DNA from: Bacteroidota bacterium
Lineage (GTDB): Bacteria > Bacteroidota > Bacteroidia > Bacteroidales > DYOH01
Direction of reading: 5' to 3'
Length of the DNA: 41,310 nucleotides
Assembly: GCA_020048155.1 (NCBI GenBank)
Contig: JAIFMY010000020.1
Span: 1-41,310, forward strand
In this document: positions 6,639 through 14,162 of the stretch, in pieces
How positions within the stretch are numbered: the first letter of the stretch is position 1
Layout of the letters: each line of letters begins with the position of its first letter
The notes under the pieces: model-generated
Databases searched by the model: none
Seen by the model: only the letters and a program-made list of their open reading frames with translations
Told to the model about the DNA's origin: nothing
Translations under genes and position numbers: made by a program

Positions 6639-6828
6639 CGCAGAGAGTTTTTCTCGTAGACTTTCGCAGATTGAAACGCAGTTTTTATTTCACGCAGAGT
6701 TCCGCAGAGTATATCGCAGAGTCTCGCAGAGATTGTTCTCTCGCAGAGGTAAGCTGAGTTAGGCACAGAGACATGCAGACTTTATTTCACGCAGAGTCTC
6801 GCGGAGTATATCGCAGAGTCTCGCAGAG
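6639..6828 (+). repeat. CGCAGAG heptamer array, left arm of the GxxExxY cassette
   Basis: Exact CGCAGAG heptamers start at 6639, 6693, 6703, 6715, 6725, 6742, 6790, 6812 and 6822, with a one-mismatch copy at 6800. Four-box units with 10-12-10 bp spacing occur at 6693-6731 and 6790-6828. These units sit inside a 48-bp direct duplication (6684-6731 and 6781-6828, 45 of 48 identical). The array lies beyond the stop codon of the GxxExxY gene and makes up most of the 353-bp gap before mce; the rest of that gap shows only the mce promoter. Confidence 0.85.
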
Positions 6829-6848
6829 AGTTTTTCGGAACGAATTTA

Positions 6849-7226
6849 TTATAGTTTATTGGCTATGCGGAAAATGTTTTCTTTGAGAGATGCAGAATGA
6901 AAGTTCATAAGCAATCCTAGCTTCTTATTGGTAAGTTTCAGATAAGTAAGTAATTGTTTGTGATGAACTTCTGACAAGTTTTCAACCGATTTTAATTCAA
7001 GTATTACAGTATTTTCAACCAACAAATCCAACCGAAAGCCTATATCAAATTTTATTTCTTCATAAACAAATGGTAAAGCAACTTGAGATTTCACTTCCAA
7101 ACCGGCTTTCCTGAGTTCATATTCCAACGCTTTTTCATATACGCTTTCCAAAAGTCCCGGCCCCAAAGCTGTATGCACTTTCATAGCACAACCTATAATC
7201 TTGTAGGTCAAATCATTTATATCCAT
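6849..7226 (-). CDS. GxxExxY family protein (PDDEXK_3-like)
   Basis: Small protein of about 125 residues. The signature that names the family is visible as GLLESVY (Gly24, Glu27, Tyr30). A PD-(D/E)XK-like core follows, with Asp67 in RLDLLV and Glu77-x-Lys79 in ILELK, suggesting a nuclease fold, although activity is unproven in this family as far as I know. The length is typical, so the gene looks complete. It is enclosed by CGCAGAG heptamers on one side and the inverse CTCTGCG on the other, and no other gene lies between them. This suggests that gene and repeats form one cassette. Function unknown; a role in repeat mobility or maintenance is inference only. Confidence 0.88.
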   Translation of the reverse strand: MDINDLTYKIIGCAMKVHTALGPGLLESVYEKALEYELRKAGLEVKSQVALPFVYEEIKFDIGFRLDLLVENTVILELKSVENLSEVHHKQLLTYLKLTNKKLGLLMNFHSASLKENIFRIANKL

Positions 7227-7290
7227 ATTGCATAAGAATTAAAACATTTTTCTCAAACTCTATATAATACTATCAAAAAATCACCAACTA

Positions 7291-7328
7291 CTCTGCGAAA
7301 CTCTGCGTTTCCTCTGCGCGACTCTGCG
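7291..7328 (-). repeat. CTCTGCG heptamer array, right arm of the GxxExxY cassette
   Basis: Exact CTCTGCG heptamers start at 7291, 7301, 7312 and 7322 (spacing 10, 11, 10), with a degenerate copy at 7348. They are the reverse complement of the left-arm boxes, so the two arrays face each other across the gene. The block lies upstream of the GxxExxY start codon and just before the end of the glycosyltransferase gene. Confidence 0.8.
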
Positions 7329-7386
7329 TGAAACCCTTTTTGTGCAAATCTGCGAGAAACCCTTCTCTTCGTGAGCCCCCTCTTTT

Positions 7387-12529: not shown

Positions 12530-13867
12530 ATGAAAAAAGTCAAAACCAAACGAACCCCAAAGGATCAGGAAAGCTTAATCCGTAAAGCTCAGAAAGATCT
12601 TGAAATTGAATATCTAAGAAGATTTAAATTTTATACCGATTCACTAATCGGAGCAGAGCATTTTGAAAAGTTAGATAAAACTTGGATGAAAACTATTTAC
12701 CAATTCAGAATGCGTATGCCTAATTTTATATTTAAAGATTCATCTGCATTTAGCCCTCAGATGCAAAAATTTATGAAGAGCTATTTAGATAAAGCTTTAA
12801 AAGAAATGAATTCGGAAGTAGAATTGAATGGTAAGCATCTTAAAATGGATGAATATTTAGTAACCTGGCAAACATATACAAAGTTATTTCCGGACTTGGT
12901 TTATCGCGATTTATTCAATAAATATCCCAACCTAGAGGCCTCATTTATGGAAAAATTGGCGACCAAAGATAGCGAAGGCTCTTCTCTACTTGTTTTACTT
13001 CATATTCTAATGCATATTTCGCATCAGATGAGTAGTCCGCGTAAAATCGTGAATTTACGATATGAGACGGTATTCGAAGAATTTATGTATGCAAAAGTTC
13101 TCAAGCAGGTTATATATGCCTCTATTTATTACCCTGAATTTCGAAATTTTAACATCAACAGTAAACACAGACCAGCTCAACGATTTGGATTGAATGAATT
13201 ATTTGGAAAGTTTCAATGGTTTAGTTTTACAGGGAAGCAACTTGGTCTGAAAAATGAATCTGAAAACCAAATTTTTGAAGTATTTATACAAAATCATGCA
13301 GTACTAAGATTTGCAGAAAGGATGCAAGGATGCCGAAATTATGAAGTTTCGATATATTTATATTATTCGTTTGATTCGGCTGAAATTGTCAGATATAAAA
13401 ATACATATTTAGTAAGCTACTATTTTACAGATTACAAACTAGGATATTTTGTTGGTGAGATAGTGGAAAATTGTTTCTTGATAAAAACTTTTCTTTTCCT
13501 TACCCAACTAAACACGCCGGAAGGTGATGCTCTAAGTGAGAAATTGGGTACATCAATACATGATATTGAATATCTGAATATTGGGAAACTAAGTACTTTT
13601 ATAGAAATGAATAGTAAAAGCGCTGATGAAATGTACGAACATTTTTCAGGCACCGGTTGTGAAAGTATTCTCGAATTTAAAAAGGAATTTTTCGATATAT
13701 TTGCGAGAGATTCCAATAAGGAAATTTCTTTGACTAAATACCTGAATTTAGATAAAACCGATGCAGAACTCGATGAGCTATTGGAAAGTAAGGCCGACGA
13801 ATTAGGATATAACTTCAGGAATTTGCGATTTGAAAAGGCATTAAAAGTAAAGGTAATGAAAAGCTAA
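12530..13867 (+). CDS. Unrecognised AT-rich protein next to a repeat cassette
   Basis: Encodes about 445 residues; I recognise no family. The start at 12530 (MKKVKTKRTPK) is preferred over a TTG at 12506 because the latter overlaps a -7 promoter element. The protein is soluble, rich in Lys, Glu, Phe and Tyr, with a basic N-terminus and no signal peptide or membrane segment. A motif HAVLRFAERM at about residues 273-282 resembles short His-Arg motifs of some RNase-like toxins, but this is weak. The DNA is visibly more AT-rich than the genes around it. It lies alone between the ahpCD terminator and the gene-less heptamer cassette, which begins just after its stop codon. Recent acquisition is a reasonable inference. 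Confidence 0.7.
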   Translation: MKKVKTKRTPKDQESLIRKAQKDLEIEYLRRFKFYTDSLIGAEHFEKLDKTWMKTIYQFRMRMPNFIFKDSSAFSPQMQKFMKSYLDKALKEMNSEVELNGKHLKMDEYLVTWQTYTKLFPDLVYRDLFNKYPNLEASFMEKLATKDSEGSSLLVLLHILMHISHQMSSPRKIVNLRYETVFEEFMYAKVLKQVIYASIYYPEFRNFNINSKHRPAQRFGLNELFGKFQWFSFTGKQLGLKNESENQIFEVFIQNHAVLRFAERMQGCRNYEVSIYLYYSFDSAEIVRYKNTYLVSYYFTDYKLGYFVGEIVENCFLIKTFLFLTQLNTPEGDALSEKLGTSIHDIEYLNIGKLSTFIEMNSKSADEMYEHFSGTGCESILEFKKEFFDIFARDSNKEISLTKYLNLDKTDAELDELLESKADELGYNFRNLRFEKALKVKVMKS

Positions 13868-13868
13868 C

Positions 13869-13907
13869 CGCAAAGTCACGCAGAGACATACGCAAAGTCT
13901 CGCAAAG
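13869..13907 (+). repeat. Heptamer array, left arm of the gene-less cassette
   Basis: Four boxes start at 13869, 13879, 13891 and 13901 (CGCAAAG, CGCAGAG, CGCAAAG, CGCAAAG). The 10-12-10 spacing is the same as in the units at 6693-6731 and 6790-6828; 29 of 39 positions match the first unit. Confidence 0.75.
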
Positions 13908-13961
13908 GTTTTTAGGGCAAAAATTAGTTTTATTGAAAACCAATTATATAACTTTTAAAAA

Positions 13962-14025
13962 CTCTGCGCAACTCTGCGCCTTACTTAGCGAAACTCTGCG
14001 GTAATATTCTCTGCGAAACTCTGCG
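13962..14025 (-). repeat. Heptamer array, right arm of the gene-less cassette
   Basis: Inverse boxes CTCTGCG start at 13962, 13972, 13994, 14009 and 14019. They face the left arm across only about 55 bp, with no gene between. The remaining 137 bp up to the acyl-CoA dehydrogenase gene hold no ORF; 14067-14112 carries loose direct repeats of ATCTGT and GTTC/TTCC. Confidence 0.75.
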
Positions 14026-14162
14026 TGAAAATATTCAGCGAGAATCCCATTCACAGAACTTTAAAAAAATCAGTTCCGATCTGTTCGATCAGTCCAATCT
14101 GTGTTCCATTCAAAGACCACTACGCAACTCTGCATTAAAAATCTCATCGAAATCAATCAAAA

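Follow-up and report, generated by a model that had tools for sequence, protein, structure and literature searches.

A GxxExxY nuclease-like gene between opposed heptamer arrays in a Bacteroidales genome: one copy of a probable mobile palindromic element

The locus and its boxes

The stretch of DNA analysed here (the window, 41,310 nucleotides in full) contains a GxxExxY gene at 6849..7226 on the minus strand, which encodes 125 aa, matches the profiles PF13366 and TIGR04256, and lies between two arrays of 7-bp boxes that point at each other. The 3' arm (6639..6828, plus strand) holds nine exact CGCAGAG boxes and one CGCGGAG, and is inverted with respect to the 5' arm (7291..7328, minus strand, i.e. 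the gene-sense strand), where four CGCAGAG boxes follow each other at a spacing of 10-11-10. The nine CGCAGAG and four CTCTGCG boxes facing each other across the gene are located exactly where the sequence-only reading of this DNA had placed them. In the whole window the exact heptamer occurs 21 times, compared to 2.36 times expected from shuffles (the largest count in any shuffle being 7). The probable core of the element, in the orientation of the gene (minus strand), extends over 6688..7333, from TTTCACGCAGAG (6688-6699) to CTCTGCGTGAAA (7322-7333), i.e. ~646 bp; its ends were taken from the inverted terminal sequences, in place of an empty-site comparison. A synteny search for the window copy within its taxonomic order returned homologues of its neighbour, but not beside the same partner gene, and thus no empty site for this copy.

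Within the 3' arm the boxes form two copies of a four-box unit on the plus strand, one at 6693-6731 with a spacing of 10-12-10, and one at 6790-6828 with the same spacing and CGCGGAG as its second box. A third such unit had been described at 13869-13907, and the spacing of 10-12-10 is indeed present there, but its boxes read CGCAAAG/CGCAGAG/CGCAAAG/CGCAAAG, i.e. only one of them is an exact heptamer. The earlier description had also overlooked its opposed partner: the array at 13869..13907 (plus strand), which starts 1 bp past the stop codon of the upstream gene, faces six boxes (five of them exact) at 13962..14025 (minus strand) in a gap between convergent genes, and 13869-14025 is a gene-less inverted pair rather than a lone unit. 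The window element folds with a z of -6.1, its 3' arm pairing with its 5' arm, and the gene-less pair (13866-14030) with a z of -5.4. The potential for a structured RNA or cruciform that had been suggested is thereby borne out, in that folding and arm pairing show the arrays to be palindromic, with the capacity to fold into a hairpin or cruciform.

The window's own genome (a draft of 3.92 Mb in 251 contigs) has 38 CGCAGAG-pair matches on nine contigs, and the four-box unit occurs on at least eight further contigs. All 23 array clusters on the contigs examined avoid ORFs of at least 100 aa, at a coding fraction of 0.81 (P = 4e-17), and none of the 23 lies between divergent genes. GxxExxY genes number four in this genome, of which the other three adjoin different repeats (ACGGAT-type, CACATAGGCACATAG-type and AACGCAGATCTGAC-type, the gene beside the last being truncated by a contig end). 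Elsewhere in the genome a box array has been amplified as a 53-bp tandem unit in approximately four copies (contig C37, L035:223-472), and on contig C125 (L040:3060-3480) a second repeat family, AACGCAGATTAGACTGATCGAACGGATT, is nested inside opposed CGCAGAG arrays.

The GxxExxY protein

The window protein matches PF13366 with an E-value of 3.7e-43 and 147 bits (curated cut-off 22), and TIGR04256 with 5.4e-45 and 152.5 bits (curated cut-off 35). Across 73 GxxExxY sequences D66, E76, K78, Q90 and Y94 are invariant, while E26, R64 and H87 are nearly so; the window protein thus carries the PD-(D/E)XK residues (D66 and E76-x-K78), together with Q90-xxx-Y94 and the GxxE26xxY helix. A sequence search against solved structures gave no match for the protein, and the best PDB fold for its AF2 model (pLDDT 94.4) is SSO0001 (4ic1, E 1.9e-3), which we take to be a Cas4 protein, with lambda exonuclease also near; the Cas4 profile itself matches weakly (E 0.002). 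The PD-(D/E)XK-like product proposed by the sequence-only reading is in agreement with the profile matches, the invariant D/ExK residues and the predicted fold alike. On the strength of the D...ExK residues on the modelled superfamily fold, the protein can be assigned to the PD-(D/E)XK superfamily, in which it would be a nuclease of the Cas4/RecB type with its predicted catalytic residues intact. It is not a Cas4 protein, for which a four-cysteine Fe-S cluster and a context of CRISPR adaptation are the criteria, as no cysteine is found in the invariant or near-invariant columns of the 73 sequences.

For two vertically held pairs at shared loci dN/dS is 0.016 and 0.03, i.e. there is strong purifying selection, and the protein is therefore being kept functional. 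No assigned function was found for GxxExxY proteins, and no paper on GxxExxY elements, the function of PF13366 or the repeat strings was found in the literature covered (which left out subscription journals and preprints); within the same coverage, a search on PDDEXK and palindromes returned MITE and REP papers only. No relative was found in phages, and in plasmids seven records only.

Boxes, clades and insertion sites across genomes

TIGR04256 is present in 188 of the 296 sampled genomes of the class (drafts, one per species, with heuristic gene starts, and with relatives overlapping in some of the counts). Pairs of the form CRCARAG-N3-CRCARAG average 3.2 per genome with the gene versus 0.69 without it, and having five or more box pairs is associated with gene presence at an odds ratio of 8.9 (p = 8e-6, genome size and phylogeny ignored, the latter also in the other statistics across genomes). 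Within 100 bp of 180 GxxExxY genes, most of which belong to other genomes, the density of CRCARAG is 7.1/kb upstream (sense strand) and 6.5/kb downstream (antisense strand), compared to a background of ~0.25/kb beyond 500 bp, which is an enrichment of ~28-fold; the reversed control motif remains flat (0.04-0.4/kb). Enrichment on the sense strand upstream and on the antisense strand downstream means that the arrays point inward, like those in the window. The co-occurrence of heptamer arrays with GxxExxY loci that had been predicted therefore exists, and the opposite outcome, by which arrays would be equally common far from such genes, was looked for and not observed, density being at background by 500 bp, even though gene-less copies do exist. 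Three genomes (G029, G060 and G183) have several CRCARAG box pairs with no TIGR04256 gene detected, for which relic arrays or another driver are candidates.

The type of box tracks the clade of the GxxExxY protein and not the genome. Two or more inward CRCARAG boxes flank 64% of the genes of clade A (GPGLLES motif, 103 genes) versus 0 of the 59 of clade B (GNGFQE motif), where the box type is AGGATT/CAGGAT (CAGGATT), AGGATT being found at 56% of clade B versus 5% of clade A genes; in about one third of clade A, exact CRCARAG boxes number fewer than two. Clade B also occurs in records labelled cyanobacteria, Ignavibacteria, Geobacteraceae and others, some of which are metagenome bins with uncertain individual phylum labels. 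In 56 within-genome comparisons, box similarity to the paralogue in the own genome is 0.08 versus 0.21 to the nearest protein relative elsewhere (p = 5e-6), and 0.06 to a random foreign gene. Such co-variation is what would be expected if the protein recognises the boxes, and is not predicted by genome composition or by a common third machine. The spacing of the boxes is less constant: other members of clade A range over 8-12 bp, most often 9, and clade B has 8-9 or 17 bp. Helical phasing at 10-12 bp, which had been put forward from the window, thus fails as a general rule in this survey of both clades, and was dropped as the organising principle.

Clade A arms pair with their own partner at -37 kcal/mol versus -26 kcal/mol with that of another gene (p = 1.6e-7), and the own arm is the best of nine in 47% of cases versus 11% by chance; the effect is weak in clade B (p = 0.09) and absent from control windows displaced by 1.3 kb. 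Typical element ends are TTAACC[AG]CARAG and its complement, and a looser version of this end motif is found on both sides of 12 of 98 clade A genes versus 0 of 140 displaced controls, delimiting elements of ~460-610 bp.

Occupied and empty sites were compared in another genus of the class, related to that of the window (g30, 36 genomes), with joined flanks at three loci. In G126 a GxxExxY gene with its arms (~566 bp) lies between PaaD-like and enoyl-CoA hydratase-like genes (as we presume from their translations, read by eye), and these two genes are joined by a short gap in G345, G351, G358, G021 and G355. The L287 site has the element in G289 and G337, a gene-less palindrome in a third species (G342, L310), and contiguous flanks in G354 (87% identity) and several others; at L059 the element is present in G176, with contiguous flanks in many sisters, and at L290 it is present in G359 and G126, the flanks being contiguous in G354 and G063. 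At these four gene-bearing loci the element is found in one or two species, and in many sisters the site is contiguous (at up to 87% identity). A compact gene-less palindrome in G126 folds with a z of -11.2, and a gene-less palindrome of G126 has no counterpart in at least seven sister species, most of which have just a few bases between stop and start codon; an exact-pattern search for such compact palindromes, with what proved too strict a pattern, returned one site in the 36 genomes. Occupied and empty states of one and the same locus, by which a transposable element is recognised, were thus observed at four gene-bearing loci and one gene-less site, all in another genus of the class; the window copy is not among them. 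The four loci showed no consistent target-site duplication. Gain is the simpler reading than loss, because the empty sites are in the majority, although losses are possible site by site. Copies at a site can persist vertically, and transposition is therefore slow. The post-stop site that has a GxxExxY element in G176 holds a different palindrome, CCCTGTCAGGGTTT..AACCCTGACAGGG, in L317, L318 and L319, and the site that has one in G359 and G126 holds two small ORFs in L322 and L323 (perhaps a VapBC-like toxin-antitoxin pair, judging by eye).

The design of a gene in the loop of a palindrome is common to two unrelated proteins, GxxExxY and S23 (TIGR02436, a four-helix bundle). CRCARAG boxes are absent from S23 genes, and the dispersed S23 genes (L219-L248) are located between tandem arrays of their own (TTATTAG, GTATTGA, TTGAGAT and others), the arms of which pair at -47 kcal/mol with their own partner versus -34 kcal/mol across genes, the own arm being the best of nine in 61%. 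In genus g30 one intergenic site, downstream of the enoyl-CoA hydratase-like gene (L266, L261, L277, L268, L270, L258, L295), exists in five states, i.e. empty, with a GxxExxY-type gene-less palindrome, with an S23 gene enclosed by a TGGTTGTTAG/CTAACAACCA palindrome of its own, with deleted S23 remnants, and with single-arm remnants.

A mobile element with its own nuclease, and its relation to known systems

Following these results, it seems probable that a mobile element is present at this locus in one copy: a palindrome of ~0.45-0.65 kb, moved by its Cas4/RecB-type nuclease by way of its own boxes. The two inward arms of tandem 7-bp boxes can pair together, the loop carries the single gene for the 125-aa nuclease, and the element is accommodated in short gaps just past stop codons. 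The nuclease would most likely recognise its own type of box, either as a paired hairpin or cruciform or as a single strand, and cutting at the boxes would lead to excision of the element or to its copying into further intergenic positions. The palindromes that lack a gene (e.g. 13869-14025) may then be non-autonomous and mobilised in trans, or else be what deletions have left behind. Box binding, cutting, the route of insertion, protein-driven movement and mobilisation in trans are what we infer, and the most economical account would be that of a nuclease acting on its own boxes, by analogy to RAYT on REPs, with a different enzyme.

Other explanations of the same observations have to be weighed. 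Movement of the gene alone, by homing, is unlikely: here the nuclease gene would invade existing gene-less box palindromes by cutting them, with repair from a gene-bearing copy, which would suit the commonness of gene-less palindromes with the same boxes and the three states of a single site (empty, gene-less in G342, gene-bearing in G289 and G337). However, the sisters have no box palindrome at the paaD/paaG-like and L059 sites, so that gene and arms arrived or left together there, and the palindrome of G342 is equally explicable as an internal deletion. An explanation at the level of RNA, to which we assign a similarly low probability, holds that the arms are an RNA stem cut by the host RNase III, through which the insertion would be hidden in transcripts, with the protein as an accessory and movement depending on some other factor. 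The elements do lie between operon-like gene pairs directly after stop codons, and the S23 genes of these genomes are also found in palindromic arrays in the same insertion niche; the architecture is the same as that of the S23 intervening sequences in 23S rRNA (PMC4990558). A pure RNA stem, however, would not need a box that is conserved as a motif and tracks the protein clade, and the DNA-nuclease type of fold and the strong purifying selection on the protein also argue against it.

It is more doubtful still that the arrays belong to a different machine, e.g. as the repeats of a REP-associated tyrosine transposase, with GxxExxY as cargo. Array-only copies outnumber the genes in the window's genome and arrays without a detected gene occur in G029, G060 and G183, as such a passenger role would have it, but the box type follows the GxxExxY protein instead of the genome, and a RAYT was rejected as the driver, no Y1 transposase being found in the window's genome with the PF01797 profile. 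Least probable is an immobile regulatory array, in which the boxes are gene operators or transcription terminators; the arrays are hairpin-capable and located at gene ends, which is compatible with this, whereas the empty sites and the many gene-less copies are not.

The preferred reading, i.e. movement by the element's own nuclease, also allows a broader and more tentative proposal, for which our confidence is somewhat below even: that these elements form an undescribed class of bacterial mobile element, in which there is neither transposase nor recombinase, and the heptamer arrays of the palindromic arms, specific to each clade, are recognised by a lone Cas4-like PD-(D/E)XK nuclease that moves its own element as well as gene-less copies, with S23 as a parallel class of similar design. 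Related genes with matching repeats of their own occur in dozens of other genomes, and this kind of element would thus be widespread and is apparently undescribed. The mobile-element reading gives GxxExxY proteins a testable role, accounts for a family of heptamer repeats that is common between genes, and connects the S23 intervening sequences of rRNA with the dispersed elements. It makes of the GxxExxY elements a naturally varied set of nuclease/recognition-box pairs, and raises the question of how an element with a nuclease as its only gene moves.

Of the systems known, the closest resemblance is to the REP/RAYT unit, which is defined by a gene between two inverted repeats, with the RAYT acting on the REPs (PMC2817692). 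By analogy, the GxxExxY element works like such a unit in its gene arrangement, co-specificity and dispersal, as it too has a gene between flanking inverted repeats, a repeat type that co-varies with the type of protein, and dispersed gene-less palindromes. It is not itself a member, given that its protein is of the PD-(D/E)XK type instead of the IS200/IS605-type HUH tyrosine (Y1) transposase of a RAYT and does not match PF01797; moreover, its arms are arrays of 7-bp boxes rather than single REPs, and its copies number in the tens versus hundreds for REP. With MITEs and foldback elements it shares gene-less palindromes related to a gene-bearing element, but it has neither a known transposase nor a clear target-site duplication. 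The fold and the D, ExK and QxxxY motifs are those of Cas4, RecB and lambda exonuclease, from which the GxxExxY protein differs in being minimal (125 aa) and located between box arrays, with no CRISPR gene identified beside it. In the S23 intervening sequences of 23S rRNA the ORF likewise lies in the loop of an inverted-repeat stem, which RNase III excises (PMC4990558). The window element is not an rRNA intervening sequence, since its neighbours are protein genes and the window has no Rfam match at gathering scores, and the GxxExxY copies examined lie in intergenic gaps instead of rRNA, with an unrelated protein and boxes that differ from those of S23. What they have in common is a size of ~0.45 kb and inverted ends that form a stem with a small ORF in its loop; with the dispersed S23 genes, the GxxExxY elements also have in common the palindrome built of arrays and an insertion site.
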